Source: a virus
DNA: 64,000 nt
IMG/VR virus record: IMGVR_UViG_3300020442_000009
Coordinates: 1-64,000 of that record
Direction: 5' to 3' (one strand)
The notes under the pieces were generated by a model. The model was not told the DNA's origin. It searched no databases and was given only the letters and a program-made list of their open reading frames with translations. The position numbers and the translations under genes were made by a program. Positions 15,969 to 63,486 of the stretch are shown in pieces. Position 1 is the first letter of the stretch, and every line of letters begins with the position of its first letter.

Positions 15969-15974
15969 ATTACA
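15969..15974 (-). promoter_or_regulatory. TGTAAT-type (late-like) promoter box
   Basis: Minus strand reads AGTGTAATAATATATTATG: the TGTAAT core ends 8 nt before the ATG at 15960. Same geometry as the other boxes of this class. Confidence 0.55.
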
Positions 15975-27523: not shown

Positions 27524-28174
27524 TTAGAATTTAAAGCTCAAAGATGTACCGAAAACATATTCTCTATCAATATCATCGGCATCTACATAATCCACACCTA
27601 AAGAAAGGTCAGCTGCATCAGAAACACTCTTAGAAAGAGATGCTCCAACAACATAATATGTCCTATCGGATGCGGAAGTTAACTCTGTATTTCCAACAGT
27701 AGCTTCAAGATCAAGAGAAGCGAAAGATAAATCAAAATCATGACTTACTCCAGCTTCAAATGTATAAAGAGAATCATCTAAATCTCTAAAAAGAGAAACA
27801 GAAGGATTCAATACTGTATTGGAAGAAAGAACTAATTCAACTTCAGAAAGAGCATTTCCGGGAACGTCTTCGAAGTGATTTAATCCTACATATGCTGAAA
27901 GAAGACCTTCAGCAAAAGACTTGCCAAGTCCAGCACCAAGATGGTAGCTATCATTGCCCACATCCACTGCTTGGTTTGTGCAAGCATGTGCAGAGGCATC
28001 TAATCCAGCAACTCCAGCTCCAAGCATTAAAGATGCTTGAACAGACTGTTCTGCTTTCTGTGAACCTCTATAAAAGAAGTCAGAAGCATAACCAATCTTG
28101 GCAGAATTGCCCAAAAGGGCGGCGTTACAAATAAGTCCACAAAGGACAAGTAGTGATGTTAGTTTATTTTTCAT
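27524..28174 (-). CDS. Outer-membrane beta-barrel protein
   Basis: A 216-residue protein with a signal peptide (MKNKLTSLLVLCGLICNAAL), then alternating amphipathic strands to a C-terminal aromatic (TSLSFKF), as in outer-membrane barrels. The opening IGYASDFFYRGSQKAEQSVQ resembles the TorF/Gcw_chp-type porin family. I chose ATG 28174 because the signal peptide begins there; an upstream in-frame ATG at 28297 would overlap the holin-like gene. Possible roles: host envelope change or superinfection exclusion. Confidence 0.8.
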   Translation of the reverse strand: MKNKLTSLLVLCGLICNAALLGNSAKIGYASDFFYRGSQKAEQSVQASLMLGAGVAGLDASAHACTNQAVDVGNDSYHLGAGLGKSFAEGLLSAYVGLNHFEDVPGNALSEVELVLSSNTVLNPSVSLFRDLDDSLYTFEAGVSHDFDLSFASLDLEATVGNTELTSASDRTYYVVGASLSKSVSDAADLSLGVDYVDADDIDREYVFGTSLSFKF

Positions 28175-28193
28175 AATATATAGATGAAAGGTT

Positions 28194-28367
28194 TTAGGAG
28201 GACTTTTTTGCGACATGTTCTCCGACATTGCCAGCGGCATAAAGTCCAAAAATCCATTTGACGAAATCAGCCCAATCTTTAAATTCAGCCATTCCATACA
28301 GTAATGCGGTAGTTGCAGAAATAAAGCAAATTGCCGCGCATAGTAGTTTTCTACTTTTAAAATTCAT
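28194..28367 (-). CDS. Holin-like small membrane protein, 57 aa
   Basis: Reads MNFKSRKLLCAAICFISATT onward, with a hydrophobic N-terminal helix, an amphipathic middle (DWADFVKWIFGLYAAGNVGE) and a basic tail. The GLYAAGNVGEH ending is typical of short phage membrane proteins annotated as holins or holin-like. ATGA overlap with the upstream gene. Confidence 0.6.
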   Translation of the reverse strand: MNFKSRKLLCAAICFISATTALLYGMAEFKDWADFVKWIFGLYAAGNVGEHVAKKSS

Positions 28368-30137: not shown

Positions 30138-30166
30138 AGTATACAAAAAATATACCGAAAAGTCAA
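30138..30166 (-). promoter_or_regulatory. Sigma70-like promoter, leaderless
   Basis: Minus strand: TTGACT (30166-30161), 17 bp, TATACT (30143-30138), 6 nt to the ATG at 30131. Confidence 0.7.
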
Positions 30167-30175
30167 GAAAAAAGT

Positions 30176-33296: not shown

Positions 33297-33836
33297 TTAA
33301 CGATATTTTTTTTGAAGCAGCCTCCAGCGATCAGAATCAATCTCTTTATTGCCACTATCTATAGCATACAACATTTCCATAATTTCGTCAAGCGAATTAT
33401 AAATATATTTATGAGGAAACATTCCTAACATCCAGAGAGGAGTTTTAGCTTTACCGCCTTCCATACTCACAAAAACAGGTTTTTTCTCTCTCACTGCAGT
33501 TACTATTTCCTCTGCGCTTCCCCAAGAGGCCACATCTGGTACAAGATGAGCAATAATAAAGTCTGATCTATCTACAAGATTAAGATCATAAGCTCTCACC
33601 ATTTTCATTCTTTCTGTTACCCTGTCATATTGTTTTGTTTTCATCCAAGTTTCCATTTCTTGACGAGAAGCTTCATCTTCTTCTACATCTTTCATAAATG
33701 GCTTTTTATAAGGGTCAAAACAAGTAATACCTAAAGGTTCTAGCTTTTCTGTAACTTCTTCACGCCAATTTCTGCCGCTTAGATATTGCATATGTCCGAC
33801 AAGATAAGTTTTAGTCTTATATAGTAAGTTACTCAT
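33297..33836 (-). CDS. Nucleoside 2-deoxyribosyltransferase-like protein
   Basis: A 179-residue Rossmann-like protein: KTYLVGHMQYL start, ITCFDPYKKP, then DLNLVDRSDFIIAHLVPDVA and SWGSAEEIVTA (Glu equivalent to the catalytic nucleophile of deoxyribosyltransferases), and KPVFVSMEGG. These enzymes swap bases on deoxyribonucleosides; related DUF4406-type proteins also hydrolyse N-glycosidic bonds. Fits the nucleotide set. The promoter 33843-33871 overlaps a TTTCGAC/CAGTGGACGA element. Confidence 0.75.
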   Translation of the reverse strand: MSNLLYKTKTYLVGHMQYLSGRNWREEVTEKLEPLGITCFDPYKKPFMKDVEEDEASRQEMETWMKTKQYDRVTERMKMVRAYDLNLVDRSDFIIAHLVPDVASWGSAEEIVTAVREKKPVFVSMEGGKAKTPLWMLGMFPHKYIYNSLDEIMEMLYAIDSGNKEIDSDRWRLLQKKYR

Positions 33837-33909: not shown

Positions 33910-35175
33910 TTAGGCAATAATATCTAAAATAGGGGGCTTGCCATTAGAAATTTTAAATGGTCTACCACTTGGCGAGTATGTAATTTTTTCAACACTTAAC
34001 CCCATAGCATATGCTATAGTAGCATTAATTGATTCTATATCAACTCCATTTTCCTCAACATAGTGAGCTCCTTTGTCAGATTTACCATGAACATAACCAG
34101 CTTTTATTCCTCCGCCAGCAAATAGAGCACTAAATGCAGATGGGTGATGATCTCTACCAACTCTACCAGCTTTGATTTCTGGGCTTCTGCCAAATTCACT
34201 AGCAACAACAACCATTGTATCGGAAAGCAAGCCTCTGATATTTAAATCTTCTAATAAAGAACTTAATCCGGCATCTAAAACTGCTCCACGAGTTTCCATA
34301 TTGCCAAAAACATCATTATGCATATCCCAGCCCCCATAAGACACTTCAATAAATCTAACTTTATTCTCAACTAATCTCCTAGCAAGCAAGCAACCTTGGC
34401 CGAAATTATCTCTACCATACCTATCTCTAGTCTCTTCGCTTTCTTTAGTTAAATCAAAAGACTCTAGATCTTTACTTTTCATTAAACTAATTGCATTGTC
34501 ATATAAATCAGAATAAGCTCTAACTTTTTTTTGCGGAAAATCTTTGGAAAAATGTTTATTGAGTAAACGTGATGCATCTAAACGTTTATAAAACATGTTT
34601 TCATCGACATATCCAGATTTTTTAACATTTTGTATACCAGCATTTGGGTTTCCTAGCGGCAACGGGCCATGCTTGCTTTCAAAATAACCAGCTCCAATAA
34701 TTCCACTACCGCCATTAATTTTTATATTATCAGGTAATGTTTCATTTAAACTTCCGCTTAACTTACTAACCCAACTACCCATACTAGGATGGACAATTGT
34801 TCCTCTTTTTTGGTAACTTGTGTGAAGTAAATAATTAGCTTGATCGTGAGCTCCTTGATTACTATTAATTGAACGAACTAAAGATGCTAAATGCATTTGT
34901 TTTGCAGTTTTAGGTAACCAATGACCTAACTGAATGCCATCTGCAGAGGTGTCGATAGCTTCAGTTTCACCCATAATCTCTTTGTTTTCTGGTTTAGGGT
35001 CAAATGTATCTACATGAGTCATTCCGCCTGTCATATTCAGAAATATAACATGTCTAGCAGTAGGCACTCTCGTGGTCTTTGCTATAAGGTTTGGTCCATA
35101 AATTAAGGCATTAACGCCTAAATACGTTTTTGCAATTGTTTTTGCAAAATCTCTTCTTGATAGTTCTTCGTTCAT
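33910..35175 (-). CDS. DUF1501 family protein (PVC-type), Tat signal
   Basis: A 421-residue protein of the DUF1501 family, an alkaline-phosphatase-like superfamily member abundant in Planctomycetes and Verrucomicrobia. N-terminal twin-arginine motif SRRDFAKTI (residues 6-14) is followed by a hydrophobic stretch, so Tat export is likely. Hallmarks: VIFLNMTGGMTHVDTFDPKP (about 43-62), GGWDMHNDVFGNM, VVASEFGRSPEI, GRDHHPSAFSALFAGGG. It lies 5 bp downstream of the DUF1549/DUF1553 gene, the usual pairing in PVC chromosomes. Very unusual in a phage. Confidence 0.92.
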   Translation of the reverse strand: MNEELSRRDFAKTIAKTYLGVNALIYGPNLIAKTTRVPTARHVIFLNMTGGMTHVDTFDPKPENKEIMGETEAIDTSADGIQLGHWLPKTAKQMHLASLVRSINSNQGAHDQANYLLHTSYQKRGTIVHPSMGSWVSKLSGSLNETLPDNIKINGGSGIIGAGYFESKHGPLPLGNPNAGIQNVKKSGYVDENMFYKRLDASRLLNKHFSKDFPQKKVRAYSDLYDNAISLMKSKDLESFDLTKESEETRDRYGRDNFGQGCLLARRLVENKVRFIEVSYGGWDMHNDVFGNMETRGAVLDAGLSSLLEDLNIRGLLSDTMVVVASEFGRSPEIKAGRVGRDHHPSAFSALFAGGGIKAGYVHGKSDKGAHYVEENGVDIESINATIAYAMGLSVEKITYSPSGRPFKISNGKPPILDIIA

Positions 35176-35180
35176 AGTAA

Positions 35181-37205
35181 TTATTTAATAAATATAAATT
35201 CGTGAGAATTAAGTAAGATCCAAGATATGTGCTTGAACCCATCCTTTTCATCTACAAAGTTTTTTAAAATTTTTAATTCATTGGCTTTGGGTTTTCTTCC
35301 AAGAATCGATAAGAATGCACTCGTTACTTGTTTTTCTTTGTTTTTTTCTGCTCCTATTAATTTTATAAAGTCTGCATCTTTTTTGTTTAAAATATTAGTT
35401 TCAACAAAACCATTTAAAAGATTTAATACTTGTGTGGTGTTTGGTTCTGAGTTGCTATTATCTATTTGTTCTTTATCGCTACCACCAAACTGCCTAATTA
35501 AGTGACCTCCGGGCGCTGGATGTTGCAGATAGCTGCTTCTTACTAAATTTCTATCTTTAATGGTTTTATTTTGATATTTAGAATTAATTATTCCAAGTAA
35601 ATTTCTATTTCCTTTGTTTTCTTCTGCTATTTTTTTAAAATCATCATATATTTCTTCCCCTGTCATATCTTTATATCTTTCATATATAGGAGTATAGTCT
35701 TGCATATTATGTAAGTAAACTCTTTCTTTGGTGTCAATATTATTATATACTAAAGTCACAAGAGAATCCCATAATTGCTCTCCTGTCATTCTCCTTAAGA
35801 TAGGACCTTCAAAATCATAACTTTCGAGAGTTTTGTAATCTTCTTTTTTGCTTTCTCTTTGAAATAGTTTTGTGTTTAATAAAATTCTTTGATATTCTCT
35901 TAAGTCATAATTCACACTAACCATTAATCTTTCTAAATATTTCATTAATTTAGTATTGCTGGCAATTGTGTCATCCATCATTGTATCTATGGGTTCAATA
36001 AGCCCCGCTCCAAAAATTTGCTTCCAAATTCTATTACTAATCATTGTTGTGAATCTAGGATTATCTTTGCTGACAATCCAATCTGCGAAAATTTTTCTAC
36101 TCTCACCTTCTGGGGACTCTGTTGGCTTTGGGGTAAAAATAGCTTTAGCAACAACTGTATCTCCGGGGTTGCCGTCATCTTCAGCAAAATCTCTAGGTAA
36201 TTTAATTGTGCCTGTGCCATTATTATCTATACCAAATTGTATAGAATCTCTGACTTGATTTCTCCAATTATTAAATAATCCAGCATTGGCGTCGCCATCT
36301 GCATTAATCGCTCTACTTAAGGCTCCTATGACTTTGCCACCCTCCTTTGTTCTTACGTTGCCAATTCCAGAAGTGAATGCTGTCATTTCATAAAATTGTT
36401 TTTGACTCCACTTGTCAAATGGGTGATTATGGCACATGGCACATTCTAATCTAGTGCCGAGAAAAATTCTAATAGTGTGAGATAAATTATCTTCTTGCAT
36501 ACCTCTGTCTCTTAGGTAATAGCTTATTGCCTCCCCGCCATCAAAAAGTTTTCCTGTACTTGAAACTAATTCTTTTACTATTGTATCATAATTTTTTTTG
36601 TCTGCAATTGCATCTCTTAACCACTGCCTGTAAGCAGATCCAACATTTATATTTGTTCCATTAACTCTATCTTTTACTCTCAGCATGTCAGTCCACCAGT
36701 TTAGTTGGTGGTTTACATAGCCATTTGAATGTAGAAGTTTTTGTACTAAATTATCTCTTTTATTACTATCCCTGTCATCAATAAAGCTATTGATTTCTTC
36801 TTGAGTGGGGATTCTTCCGACTGTGGTAAGATATAATCTTCTTACATAGGAATAGTCATCTAAAGGCTTAGTCTTTTGTAATTTTTTTGATCTTAAGTTT
36901 TGATCTATTAATTGATCTATATAAGAAACATATTGTTTTAGTGTGCGTTCATCTACGGGAGTTTTGACTGTAGGTATTGTGCTATACCTATTTTTAGAGA
37001 AATATAATTCTATTTGTTTTTGAGTATCTAGTGTCAATAAATCAATTTTAAACCTAAATTGTTGTAAATCTTGAGATCTAGCTATTCTAACATGGGTTTC
37101 ATTTGCCTCTAATATTTCAGCATCAAGAGATTTACCATCTTTAAAATAAAGAGTGGAGCCAAAACAAAAAGTAGTGGCAAAGAAGAGAAATATAATGTTT
37201 TTCAT
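35181..37205 (-). CDS. DUF1549/DUF1553 (PSCyt2-PSD1) protein with SHD1-like N-terminus
   Basis: A 674-residue exported protein: signal peptide (MKNIIFLFFATTFCFGS), an SHD1-like segment (YFKDGKSLDAEILEANETHV, about 20-65), DUF1549 with RRLYLTTVGRIPT (about 122-134) and a CxxCH motif (LECAMCHNHPFDKWSQK, about 253-269), then DUF1553 (GEQLWDSLVTLVYN onward, ending with SAFLSILGRKP). Start ATG 37205 (a TTG at 37208 also opens the frame). PSCyt1 (PF07635) is absent. Partner of the adjacent DUF1501 gene; a TGTAAT box lies 27 nt upstream. Confidence 0.92.
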   Translation of the reverse strand: MKNIIFLFFATTFCFGSTLYFKDGKSLDAEILEANETHVRIARSQDLQQFRFKIDLLTLDTQKQIELYFSKNRYSTIPTVKTPVDERTLKQYVSYIDQLIDQNLRSKKLQKTKPLDDYSYVRRLYLTTVGRIPTQEEINSFIDDRDSNKRDNLVQKLLHSNGYVNHQLNWWTDMLRVKDRVNGTNINVGSAYRQWLRDAIADKKNYDTIVKELVSSTGKLFDGGEAISYYLRDRGMQEDNLSHTIRIFLGTRLECAMCHNHPFDKWSQKQFYEMTAFTSGIGNVRTKEGGKVIGALSRAINADGDANAGLFNNWRNQVRDSIQFGIDNNGTGTIKLPRDFAEDDGNPGDTVVAKAIFTPKPTESPEGESRKIFADWIVSKDNPRFTTMISNRIWKQIFGAGLIEPIDTMMDDTIASNTKLMKYLERLMVSVNYDLREYQRILLNTKLFQRESKKEDYKTLESYDFEGPILRRMTGEQLWDSLVTLVYNNIDTKERVYLHNMQDYTPIYERYKDMTGEEIYDDFKKIAEENKGNRNLLGIINSKYQNKTIKDRNLVRSSYLQHPAPGGHLIRQFGGSDKEQIDNSNSEPNTTQVLNLLNGFVETNILNKKDADFIKLIGAEKNKEKQVTSAFLSILGRKPKANELKILKNFVDEKDGFKHISWILLNSHEFIFIK

Positions 37206-37232
37206 CAAAAGCTAATAGTTTATTAATAATAA

Positions 37233-37238
37233 ATTACA
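37233..37238 (-). promoter_or_regulatory. TGTAAT-type promoter box
   Basis: Minus strand AATAGTGTAATTTATTAT: core 37238-37233, with 27 nt to the ATG at 37205, longer than usual for the class. It lies between the tmRNA 3' end and the DUF1549/1553 gene. Confidence 0.5.
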
Positions 37239-37254
37239 CTATTTTTTAATAAAA

Positions 37255-37621
37255 TGGTGGAGGTGGCGGGACTTGAACCCGCGTCCTGATGGTCTTCAAG
37301 CAGACACATCTACAAGTTTAGTTAATTTTTTTTAAAGTTATGACATTAACATCCAACTACCTATTACAATTATTTACAGTTTATTAACAGGTAAACCTTT
37401 TCTGTTTTGCAGATTGATGACCCCTTATCTGTAATATCTGCGTCTTACAGTAAGAGGTAGCAGGACTAAGCTGCTAAAGCAAGCCCACGGCTCTTTTGGA
37501 AACCGAAAGCTTTAAGACGTGACTTATTGCCATGTACAAGTTTGCACTTTTTTATCGAAGCCAAGTGCGTCTCCGACTTGCAGTGTAAGAATCCAACCTC
37601 AGTCGAATCCAGTACACCCCC
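37255..37621 (-). ncRNA. ssrA: Transfer-messenger RNA (tmRNA)
   Basis: Minus strand. 5' GGGGGTG pairs with 3' CACCTCC (one G-U), followed by ACTGGATTCGACTGAGG, the conserved D-loop-like start of tmRNA; the 3' end is GGACGCGGGTTCAAGTCCCG, then CCACCTCC, discriminator A and encoded CCA. Internal reading frame ends CTTGCTTTAGCAGCTTAG, i.e. a tag terminating LALAA. In that frame the upstream residues are basic (KSRLKAFGFQKSRGLALAA); the exact resume codon cannot be set by eye. Two candidate promoters lie upstream. One-piece form, about 367 nt. Confidence 0.93.
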
Positions 37622-37645: not shown

Positions 37646-37674
37646 ATATTACAGCAAAAAAAACAAAAAGTCAA
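37646..37674 (-). promoter_or_regulatory. Candidate tmRNA promoter(s)
   Basis: Minus strand: TTGACT (37674-37669), 17 bp, TAATAT (37651-37646). A TGTAAT box (37653-37648) overlaps the -10. Either could initiate about 20 nt before the mature tmRNA 5' end, which RNase P would then trim. Confidence 0.5.
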
Positions 37675-37681
37675 GAAAAAA

Positions 37682-39013
37682 TTACAAGGGTACACCCCAA
37701 GCTAATATATTTGGCTTCTCTGGTATAAAACTTTTTCCTGAAATAAAAACTCCAGAATCTTCGTCATCTTCAGAGCCTAACTGAGCTGTAAATTTTAAAG
37801 TAACCTGTTTGTTGTCTCCTATTGATGATTGAAAATCTTCATTGGTTAGAGTTGCTTTTCTAATTTCAACTGTCATGTTTTGTTGTTTTTGTACAGCTAC
37901 ATTACAACAATCAACTAAACAGCGACAATCGTGCAGCACAATCCTTATATCAAAAGGATTTTTGCAATATTCAGTCGCAAACCCTCCCTTTTTAAGCTCT
38001 CCAACTATAGCGTCTACCTGAAGTTCTACATTAACTGGAAAGTTTACTGATCGAGTCCACTCTAAGTGGGTTCCAACTCTATGCATCCTTGTGTTGCCTA
38101 GGGGAATGTTTAAAGCAAAGCCTTGTATGCTGCCTGCGCCTCGATCATAACTACTTTGGCCCACTTCTCCATGAGTATCACTAAATCCGCTAACTTGTTC
38201 AGTAACCATAGAGCGATTTTGTAAATCAATTCGGATATCTCCGGGCCTTAAAGCAGTGGTTCCCGGCTTAACATAAATATCTTCCATTCCTGAAACTTGT
38301 TCATAAAGTATACCTTGCTCTGGGTCTGGCAAACTAAATCGCAAGTCTTCTGATCCTAGCTCGCTTAATATACAGTCTTTATTTGGATTAACACTTGGTA
38401 ACGGTAAATTGCATACTCCAGTGTTGTAGGAGCGAATATTAAAACCCTCAAAGGTTGCTCTAGCTCTAGGAAGTTTATCTACTTCGGCAACAAGTGCATA
38501 TTGAGATAAGAAAGCATTACCTATTCCTACAATCCTTTTTGTTTCAGGTTTTATACTTAAATCTGTACCAATTGCATCATGTCCATAGTCTGAGGTTAAT
38601 AGAAAAAAGTTTGCTCCAACCTTTCTATTATAGTCATATATATGGTTCCTTAAGGCTTGATGTGTCCCATCAACATGAAAACCCATTAATTTTTCATTAT
38701 AACCATCTGCAAGTAAGTACTCAAAGTCTAAAGTTATGTCTGGGGTAGTTAGCTGCATAAAGTCTAGCCTTGCTCCTTGGCCATATTGATCTACATTAGT
38801 CCAGTTAATTTTGTAATCAAAATTGACTGATTGTATTCTATGTAGTTGCCTTACTAGATTGCCAGAGCAGCCAGTGGGGGATTCATTTCTTAAGAGGCAA
38901 CCAGAAATGTCATGTGCTGTGTTATTGCCAAAATGGTAGCCTGTAGCATCTAAGCTTGTATATAAAGCTTCAGTTTGGTATATAACCCTAGGTCTGTCAT
39001 AATAATGAGTCAC
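37682..39013 (-). CDS. Probable virion structural protein, GTG start
   Basis: A 443-residue beta-rich protein (MTHYYDRPRVIYQTEALYTS; FDYKINWTNVDQYGQGARLD; later GSIQGFALNIPLGNTRMH), with paired cysteines late (LHDCRCLVDCCNVAV). No known family, but size, composition and a late-type box 7 nt before the GTG start suggest a structural protein, perhaps tail or capsid decoration. It overlaps the Clp ATPase gene by 17 bp. Confidence 0.6.
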   Translation of the reverse strand: MTHYYDRPRVIYQTEALYTSLDATGYHFGNNTAHDISGCLLRNESPTGCSGNLVRQLHRIQSVNFDYKINWTNVDQYGQGARLDFMQLTTPDITLDFEYLLADGYNEKLMGFHVDGTHQALRNHIYDYNRKVGANFFLLTSDYGHDAIGTDLSIKPETKRIVGIGNAFLSQYALVAEVDKLPRARATFEGFNIRSYNTGVCNLPLPSVNPNKDCILSELGSEDLRFSLPDPEQGILYEQVSGMEDIYVKPGTTALRPGDIRIDLQNRSMVTEQVSGFSDTHGEVGQSSYDRGAGSIQGFALNIPLGNTRMHRVGTHLEWTRSVNFPVNVELQVDAIVGELKKGGFATEYCKNPFDIRIVLHDCRCLVDCCNVAVQKQQNMTVEIRKATLTNEDFQSSIGDNKQVTLKFTAQLGSEDDEDSGVFISGKSFIPEKPNILAWGVPL

Positions 39014-62472: not shown

Positions 62473-63486
62473 TTAAAAATCGTCTTCCAAAGAGCCACTT
62501 TGTTGATATTCTCTAACTCTTCTTTCGAAAAAATTACCCATGGCCTGAACATCAACAACCTCGCCCAGCCAAGGAAAAGGGTTTTTGTCACTAGGAAAGC
62601 GATAGTCTAAACCAATAGATTCTAGTCTTCTGTTACCTATATAATGCATATAGTCAACAAACATTTCTGCATTTAAACCAAGAATCCCTGTAGGTAAGAC
62701 ATCATGAGCATATGCAATTTCAAGTTCAACTGCTTTTTTAATATGCTCAACAAATTCATCTTGTATTTTTTTAGTCCATATAGATGGATTTTGCTCAATT
62801 AAAGTATTAATTAGGTATGCCCCAAAAGCAATATGTGAACTCTCATCTCTTAAAGTATATTTTATTTGATCAGAAATGCCCTGAAGTTTATTTTGTCTGC
62901 CTAATGCAAGCAGCATTGCAAAGCCGCTAAAGAAAAAAGTTCCTTCACATACAATCCAATAAGTTAAAAAGTTTCTAAGTATCTCTTGCTTACCTTCTTT
63001 AGTATGTGGATTGAAATCTTGACGACTAATGTCATTAGTGATACCCATTAAAAAATCATCTTTAGCTTTTATGCTTGGAATTGTCTCATAGGCTGTAAAA
63101 ACCTCATCAATATCTAGGTCAAGACTGTCACAAATATAAACTACCGTAAGATTGTGAAGGCTTTCTTCAAAAGCTTGACGCAAAATATACTGACGGCATT
63201 CAGCGTCCGTAATAAATCTGAAAGCCGAAAGCAAAAGGTTATTACCAACCAAAGACTCGCTTCCAGCAAAAAATCCAAGACAGCGTTTGACGAGTAATTT
63301 TTCATCTTCTGTGATTTCATTATTTTTCCATTGTTTAATATCATTCTGCATGCTAATTTCAGTAGGCATCCAGTTATTTGCACAGCTCTTTAGGAATAAA
63401 TCCCATGCATATTTATGTTTGTGAGGAAGTATTCTGTTTACTCCAGCAATATTTTTAGTTAAAAGTTCTCCTGTTTTTTCGCTCAT
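62473..63486 (-). CDS. nrdB: Ribonucleotide reductase beta subunit, class Ic-like
   Basis: A 337-residue R2 protein. Metal ligands: E77 (GSESLVGNN), E108 and H111 (FEESLHN), E181 (VCEGTFF), E215 and H218 (RDESSHIA). The position of the radical Tyr (four after H111) is V115; E77 replaces the usual Asp. Both features recall class Ic Mn/Fe R2 proteins such as that of Chlamydia trachomatis, which has Phe there. The alpha subunit is not in the window. Promoter 63527-63555. Confidence 0.92.
   Translation of the reverse strand: MSEKTGELLTKNIAGVNRILPHKHKYAWDLFLKSCANNWMPTEISMQNDIKQWKNNEITEDEKLLVKRCLGFFAGSESLVGNNLLLSAFRFITDAECRQYILRQAFEESLHNLTVVYICDSLDLDIDEVFTAYETIPSIKAKDDFLMGITNDISRQDFNPHTKEGKQEILRNFLTYWIVCEGTFFFSGFAMLLALGRQNKLQGISDQIKYTLRDESSHIAFGAYLINTLIEQNPSIWTKKIQDEFVEHIKKAVELEIAYAHDVLPTGILGLNAEMFVDYMHYIGNRRLESIGLDYRFPSDKNPFPWLGEVVDVQAMGNFFERRVREYQQSGSLEDDF

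Follow-up and report, generated by a model that had tools for sequence, protein, structure and literature searches.

Large T4-like marine phages carry, in genuine viral genomes, a host-derived, putatively auxiliary gene that encodes a DUF1501 protein. Judging from its predicted fold, this protein is most likely an exported metallohydrolase-like protein that would supplement an envelope function of the host in infection. In Planctomycetes and Verrucomicrobia, DUF1501 and PSCyt/PSD genes are multicopy, and the papers that we found give no function for them; PSCyt functions are described as wholly unknown in a study of freshwater Verrucomicrobia (PMC5615132). Here, we analysed a window of 64,000 nucleotides, positions 1 to 64,000 of the IMG/VR record IMGVR_UViG_3300020442_000009, a virus record of 125.9 kb in which a DUF1501 gene and a partner gene sit behind a tmRNA. 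An earlier note on this DNA, made from the sequence alone, had described the pair and missed the tmRNA. The features of the locus are as follows.

33297-33836, minus strand: nucleoside-deoxyribosyltransferase-like gene (PF15891, 30.9 bits against a cut-off of 30), the right flank of the empty site in phages L109, L110 and L112
33843-33871, minus strand: strong sigma-70-like promoter TTGACA-17-TATGAT with TG, the promoter of the next gene and the downstream border of the accessory insert
33910-35175, minus strand: DUF1501 protein of 421 amino acids, with the Tat signal SRRDF at residues 6-10 and an alkaline-phosphatase-superfamily-like predicted fold
35181-37205, minus strand: partner, an SHD1-DUF1549(PSCyt2)-DUF1553(PSD1) protein of 674 amino acids, with an N-terminal signal-peptide-like stretch and one CxxCHxH motif (CAMCHNH)
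37233-37238, minus strand: TGTAAT hexamer between the tmRNA and the pair
37255-37621, minus strand: complete tmRNA (E = 2e-54), directly upstream of the pair
37646-37674, minus strand: weak sigma-70-like promoter TTGACT-17-TAATAT (9/12 consensus matches), upstream of the tmRNA
37682-39013, minus strand: protein without a family match, the left flank of the empty site

The family assignments made in the earlier note are borne out by profile matches. The DUF1501 protein matched PF07394 over positions 1-389 of 390 with E = 2.8e-104 and 349.8 bits, against a curated cut-off of 27 bits, and is a full-length member of the family. In the partner, DUF1549 (PF07583, E = 2.5e-40, 139.1 bits, cut-off 29.8 bits) and DUF1553 (PF07587, E = 7.9e-32, 111 bits, cut-off 28.5 bits) occur in this order together with the proposed CxxCH motif. 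The two genes are separated by 5 bp, and ATG at 37205 is a likelier start for the partner than TTG at 37208. The Tat signal also stands: its twin-arginine RR is invariant across 83 aligned homologues, and a Tat pattern was matched by 32/32 phage DUF1501 copies; Tat substrates are recognised by an RR-x-phi motif ahead of a hydrophobic stretch and exported by TatABC. The CxxCHxH motif is kept in all 22 phage partner copies and may be a site of covalent haem, as in c-type cytochromes, with a metal site as an alternative. An NCBIfam search matched nothing useful, and no solved relatives were found by sequence.

The neighbouring genes are those of a phage, as the earlier note had stated, and include Clp, DNA polymerase III alpha, RNase T, DnaB, UvsX and NrdB. 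The weak promoter upstream of the tmRNA is the nearest one and probably also serves the pair; matches that good are common by chance, with 25 sites found in the region against 18.3 expected. The TGTAAT hexamer, which had been called a phage-type box, is present and enriched in minus-strand noncoding DNA, which makes up 5.5% of the sequence and has 11 of its 25 sites. However, it is a weak marker of positions just upstream of genes: 7 of 95 genes have it there, when 2.7 would be expected and shuffles reached up to 8, so this count is not clearly above the shuffles. For the tmRNA tag, the frame common to L112, L111 and L015 reads GNKSRLKAFGFQKSRGLALAA, and the tag given by ARAGORN is in the wrong frame. 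The 37682-39013 protein has RVIYQ-EALY at its start, which is similar to proteins encoded at the far end of this contig.

The DUF1501 gene was found among phage genes in 15 further IMG/VR contigs, with 54-85% identity, and the partner was present in 14 of the 15. When 28 records were chosen by NrdB alone, 16 of them carried DUF1501. A 222-kb record with DUF1501, G007, has a T4-type capsid protein (E = 1.6e-89) and a terminase, and another carrier has RIIA/RIIB, tail and ligase families. The capsid protein and terminase on one record, combined with the host-side phylogeny described below, identify DUF1501 as a host-derived gene in a genuine virus. Searches with the Terminase_6C and Gp23 models over 28 carrier records gave matches in G007 only. 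By these two models most carriers, among them G000, thus have no capsid gene; they are partial records or have divergent capsids. The pair was not found in 50,697 phage records and has no PHROG match, and we found no report of it in phages in the literature, in agreement with the view that it is not normally described for phages. The sole phage paper found that names DUF1501 concerns a protein of 61 residues (PMC5418858). In BFVD, the best viral structure match was one distant phage DUF1501, A0A6J5M742 from an uncultured Caudovirales phage (E = 2.7e-9).

The earlier note had treated the two genes as a unit deployed together. This is not upheld, since DUF1553 was not matched in 10 of the 27 phage records that have DUF1501 and the two genes are about 7.5 kb apart in L011. 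These observations rule out an obligate pair, and the records without DUF1553 point to DUF1501 as the core. In the closest phages, L109, L110 and L112 (DnaE 75-76%), the site is empty, with the tmRNA followed directly by the next gene; the pair is therefore accessory and dispensable. Related phages with the flanks joined had been named in the earlier note as evidence against a phage module; here they indicate an accessory module, not contamination. DUF1501 and its partner also change position between phages.

In the DUF1501 tree, the phage copies join a single ortholog group of Opitutales (96/91), apart from the other host paralogs. They occupy 5-6 places in the tree, and a single phage clade, and with it a single phage origin, was rejected by the AU test (p-AU = 6.6e-10). 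This implies about five separate captures at least, all from one Opitutales ortholog and in some cases along with the SHD1-DUF1549-DUF1553 partner. Searched Opitutales genomes have 6-26 DUF1501 matches each, with 45 in the larger G053, and each of the seven genomes checked has one clear ortholog. The chromosomal site of the captured ortholog is conserved; it lies beside SufS and has a multi-CxxCH partner. The DUF1501 of phage G037 is 95% identical to the chromosomal copy of L031, yet it lies between phage genes. From gene identity, the hosts are most likely low-GC marine Opitutales (Verrucomicrobiota). Repeated capture of the same gene suggests that it is useful during infection.

The AF2 model of the DUF1501 protein has a pLDDT of 88.5. 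Compared with the PDB using Foldseek, it matched sulfatases, alkaline phosphatase, LtaS/LtaP and phosphoethanolamine transferase with E from 2e-6 and a probability of 1.00; the TM values of 0.34-0.46 make these remote matches, which place the protein in the fold of the alkaline phosphatase superfamily. Nine residues are invariant or nearly so: H54, D56, T57, H110, D284, H286, E327, R330 and H343; the invariant H, D and E residues among them are metal-ligand-like. The protein matched the sulfatase profile only weakly. The strict formylglycine motif C-x-P-x-R was found in 0/32 phage and 0/78 cellular copies, and the looser [CS]-x-P-x-R in 0/32 phage copies; the missing motif rules out a sulfatase by motif. 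The AF2 model of the partner has a pLDDT of 89.2. Its N-terminal domain matched the NMR structure of Sla1 SHD1 (2hbp) with a probability of 1.00 and an rmsd of 1.7 over 47 columns, but with E = 0.32, which lends support to the SHD1-like region proposed earlier. In the PDB fold search SHD1 alone was recognised, the remaining matches being small beta-barrels or chance.

We propose, with about an even chance of being right, that the phage-exported DUF1501 protein, with or without its partner, works on an envelope component and supplements or replaces the host ortholog. DUF1501 would be exported by the host Tat system and the partner by Sec, and the CxxCH motif of the latter may be loaded with haem in the periplasm. 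The periplasmic DUF1501 protein would act on the envelope component as a metallohydrolase or transferase, and an envelope function would be kept running, or the cell surface altered, during phage replication. The host-envelope role suggested in the earlier note is compatible with the export signals and the fold but is unproven, and its suggestion of polysaccharide metabolism found no support, as the captured ortholog lies beside SufS with a multi-CxxCH partner. A further proposal, possible but doubtful, is that proteins of this DUF1501 subfamily control an envelope function in marine Verrucomicrobia that is both rate-limiting and short-lived, and important enough in infection to explain the repeated theft of this paralog by unrelated phage lineages.

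Export signals on both proteins would also suit superinfection exclusion, in which the pair, instead of maintaining a host function, alters a receptor or the surface of the infected cell and thereby blocks the adsorption of competing phages. The fold group includes the envelope-modifying LtaS and phosphoethanolamine transferase, and the genes are accessory and mobile in position between phages, as is often so with exclusion genes. We nevertheless regard this as unlikely: what the phages captured is a core ortholog of the host, which thus makes the product already, and PADLOC models matched neither protein, for which reason a known anti-phage defence system was dropped. That the best fold matches include alkaline phosphatase and sulfatases, and that these phages carry RNR, dUTPase and dNMP kinase, could instead point to a periplasmic phosphatase- or sulfatase-like enzyme that releases phosphate or sulfate to be used in phage nucleotide synthesis, as with the phosphate-acquisition genes of cyanophages. 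This is rather improbable given the missing formylglycine motifs and the usual cellular partner, a CxxCH protein, which is unlike known phosphatase operons.

There is a slim chance that the proteins are structural or moonlighting, placed in or on the virion or acting as scaffolds with the enzyme fold unused. Most of the DUF1549/DUF1553 model, SHD1 excepted, has no PDB match, and the first ligand loop and E327 of DUF1501 differ from classical alkaline phosphatases; against this, the export signals are conserved, the genes are located with those for replication and nucleotides, away from tail genes, and H54, H110, D284, H286, E327 and H343 are present in 83/83 homologues. Neutral host cargo or an assembly chimera, with bacterial DNA attached to a phage contig through chance or misassembly, is barely credible. 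Empty sites in close relatives and close host homologues are in its favour, but the same genes stand in phage context in many independent contigs, their GC3 (0.21 and 0.23) is equal to the phage value (0.217 +/- 0.032), and the median dN/dS of 0.08 for both genes indicates purifying selection. These three observations rule out a chimera or host contamination and confirm that the genes are phage-borne; moreover, one ortholog was captured repeatedly, and every tested residue is retained.

Repeated capture of a single ortholog by phages points to one member, out of 6-26 or more paralogs, as functionally critical. The shortened phage versions offer compact proteins for expression and assay. A Tat-signal auxiliary gene, with predicted export, is added to those of marine phages, and a large uncultured T4-like phage group is linked to marine Opitutales by gene sharing. 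If the rate-limiting envelope function is real, phages would have revealed the first phenotype for a PVC hallmark protein family.

The phage pair can be compared with several known systems. It shares domains, gene order and near-adjacency with the chromosomal PSCyt2/PSD1-DUF1501 pairs of Planctomycetes and Verrucomicrobia, as well as the Tat motif, CxxCHxH and the catalytic-like residues. The partner lies upstream of DUF1501 in 65/78 cellular loci, and this same-strand arrangement is also that of the window. The group nearest to the phage genes in trees is the Opitutales k0-k1-k2 operon beside SufS, whose third gene, k2 (SHD1 and PSCyt1-like CxxCH stretches), is adjacent in 11/11 Opitutales-type loci. 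By tblastn, none of the phage loci searched had k2 or, therefore, the complete operon, and the phage genes may be insufficient to re-form the host complex. Phage loci also differ in having tmRNA or replication genes as neighbours, and the partner is shorter, with 674-689 amino acids in the phage clade of the window against 756-891 in Opitutales. A0A6J5M742 is a phage DUF1501 already deposited in UniProt; however, with 489 amino acids and 14% identity over the alignment it belongs to another DUF1501 subfamily, and its readable entry has no pair or function attached. The predicted DUF1501 fold, in which core strands are followed by a D-x-H and a second ligand-like motif, resembles the alkaline phosphatase/sulfatase superfamily. 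In contrast to sulfatases, E327 aligns with their Asp ligand position and the formylglycine motif is absent, while classical alkaline phosphatases differ in the first ligand loop and at the position of E327. Cyanophages carry host-derived auxiliary metabolic genes, such as psbA and phosphate genes, and their bringing of their own copies of host core genes is the parallel for the proposed role. As in cyanophages, a host gene was taken more than once by large marine phages, is under purifying selection and lies among replication and nucleotide genes; unlike those genes, DUF1501 has a Tat signal, predicted export and a Verrucomicrobiota source.

The IMG/VR virus record is 125,909 bp in full, and the window covers its first 64 kb. 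The features at the site of the DUF1501 gene and of the gene paired with it (the partner) are as follows:

33910-35175, minus strand: DUF1501 gene (PF07394, E = 2.8e-104)
35181-37205 or 37208, minus strand: partner gene, upstream of the DUF1501 gene (DUF1549, E = 2.5e-40; DUF1553, E = 7.9e-32)
37255-37621: tmRNA, adjoining the upstream side of the partner (Rfam, E = 2e-54)
33871-33843: the next gene's own promoter, at the downstream border of the pair

An earlier note, made from the sequence alone, had named both genes and placed them 5 bp apart, which the profile matches and coordinates confirm; it had overlooked the tmRNA. The phage-type neighbourhood that it described, with polymerase III, Clp and nucleases, is also present. 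The genes around the pair form a large-phage set comprising a Clp-like ATPase, DNA polymerase III alpha, RNase T, PHP, PD-(D/E)XK, DnaB, UvsX and NrdB, while SSB, dUTPase, dNMP kinase, sigma factors and a clamp loader are found elsewhere in the phage. The two genes have the GC3 of the phage itself: 0.21 and 0.23 against 0.217 (sd 0.032). Median pairwise dN/dS is 0.080 for DUF1501 and for the partner (NG86, pairs with dS < 3), values that are rough because dS is high; near pairs (dS 0.7-1.3) have 0.01-0.06.

A protein scan found DUF1501 in 15 more IMG/VR contigs, at 54-85% identity, and the partner in 14 of these 15 within the DNA fetched. Their gene order is phage-like and conserved in part (NrdB, NrdA, PHP, RNase T, DnaE, Clp). 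When records were chosen without reference to DUF1501, the gene was present in 16 of 28 picked by NrdB versus 0 of 11 picked by DnaE. DUF1553 was found in 17 of the 50 records tested, always together with DUF1501; a DUF1553 match is absent from 10 of 27 DUF1501-positive records, which may be fragments, so that single absences are weak evidence. A terminase and a Gp23 capsid protein of the T4 type (E = 1.6e-89) are encoded in one 222-kb carrier, G007; in another, G009, there are members of the RIIA, RIIB, tail and ligase families. The pair had no match among 50,697 phage records and none in PHROGs. NrdB, encoded at 62473-63486 (minus strand) in the window, keeps 89-97% identity in at least 80 marine viral contigs (261 relatives were confirmed), whose DnaE, as far as compared, is only 60-76% identical; NrdB is either conserved to an unusual degree or was exchanged recently.

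The position of the pair changes. The earlier note would have given up its reading if related phages had the flanks joined and the pair absent, and such phages exist: in three contigs (L109, L110, L112), whose DnaE is 75-76% identical to that of the window, the order is Clp, the no-family protein (37682-39013 in the window), tmRNA and the nucleoside-deoxyribosyltransferase-like gene (33297-33836), as in the window, with the pair missing. L111 has the same pair-less order as far as its contig end. It follows that the pair either was inserted here, after the tmRNA and ahead of the promoter that belongs to the next gene, or has been lost elsewhere. It likewise lies behind a tmRNA in L007 and L015. 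Other phages have it next to NrdB/NrdA, next to the PD-(D/E)XK nuclease, or with Clp on one side and other genes on the other.

The tmRNA occupies one conserved site in the phage group (window 37255-37621, L112:16292-16654, L111:14180-14578, L015:7533-7930), and a tRNA-Ser follows it in L109 and L112. The tag peptides are long, start with GNK or GAK and end with ALAA. The ARAGORN tag peptide for the window is in the wrong frame; the GNKSR...ALAA frame is kept at the same site in L111, L112 and L015. A 32-nt minus-strand repeat, 81% identical between 30142-30173 and 37650-37681, contains CTTGACTTTT, and both copies probably represent one phage promoter. The hexamer TGTAAT is over-represented in the noncoding DNA of the window's minus strand, where 11 of its 25 sites fall in 5.5% of the sequence (examples at 15974, 17693, 32254, 41426, 47634 and 51580). 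It often comes straight after a stop codon, shortly ahead of an ATG, and is possibly the -10 element of nearly leaderless transcripts.

Other genes recur in carriers. Several of them encode a glycine-rich, membrane-anchored protein that has a DGSGS motif resembling VWA and, in the copy tested (L012), no Pfam match. Its gene is the immediate or almost immediate upstream neighbour of the DUF1549/1553 gene (L003:5222-6925, L006:3-1526, L010:5446-7359, L012:4634-6385, L014:4406-6157), except in L008 (L008:13483-15258), where it is downstream. DUF1501 and the partner are separated in several contigs (L003:9147-9995, L009:9148-9993, L010:9417-9995, L012:8442-9995, L014:8214-9995) by the gene for a lysine-rich protein, in which a GKKLNKPFRT...YWSCKMW block is conserved; elsewhere in the phages this gene lies away from the pair. 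A small beta-barrel-like secreted protein family is common to the window (27524-28297, minus strand), L008, L009, L015 and L016; in several of these it is followed by a 79-aa membrane protein, a further exported pair.

The closest cellular relatives of the window DUF1501 in a genome scan, at about 51% identity, belong to marine Opitutales, where the gene order SHD1-DUF1549-DUF1553, DUF1501, SHD1 protein with CxxCH stretches, SufS is conserved. In a tree with 30 sequences from phages and 20 from cellular genomes, the label has to change between phage and cellular 6 times, 5 of them forced by well-supported branches. Phages formed one clade in 0 bootstrap trees, and a tree constrained to a single phage clade was rejected (p-AU = 6.6e-10). 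The clade of the window is sister to the Opitutales group and is older or faster-evolving. Among the Opitutales genomes searched, DUF1501 matches number 6 to 26 per genome (45 in the larger G053), and each of the seven checked has one clear ortholog; when host paralogs were added, all these phage copies joined one host ortholog (96/91), apart from the other paralogs. Since the chromosomal gene order is conserved, we infer transfer from host to phage. A phage-to-host step may have occurred in the group of G042, G037 and the chromosomal L031, where the G037 copy, flanked by phage genes, is 95% identical to that of L031 (83% at the DNA level). G049 and G050 carry a different subfamily (32% identity), which is one further acquisition. 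A second, distant subfamily (32% identity) occurs in five viral contigs (L225, L226, L267-L271); two contigs were read (L256, L257), and both have it near RNase T/DnaE, PHP and PD-(D/E)XK genes.

The AlphaFold2 models are confident, with pLDDT of 88.5 for DUF1501 and 89.2 for the partner. The DUF1501 model matches sulfatases, alkaline phosphatase, LtaS/LtaP and phosphoethanolamine transferase (E from 2e-6, TM 0.3-0.46). Residues H54, T57, H110, D284, H286, E327, R330 and H343 are invariant among 83 homologues, and D56 nearly so; E327 falls on the Asp ligand position of sulfatases in a weak profile alignment, and the formylglycine motif was not found in the DUF1501 copies. The N-terminal domain of the partner matches the SHD1 structure 2hbp (probability 1.00, E = 0.32), and the remainder has no PDB match.

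Judged by sequence, both proteins have export signals. The phage would supply an extra copy of a periplasmic metallohydrolase-like protein of the host, with or without the CxxCH partner, to sustain or change a function of the envelope during phage replication. The pair may instead serve superinfection exclusion or nutrient scavenging. Because one and the same ortholog was taken up repeatedly, a specific function is favoured over random cargo.

In the open-access literature we found no report of the pair in phages and no function for it. Neither the protein families of the pair nor the concept of auxiliary genes taken from hosts is new, and UniProt already has an entry for a distant DUF1501 from a phage (A0A6J5M742).
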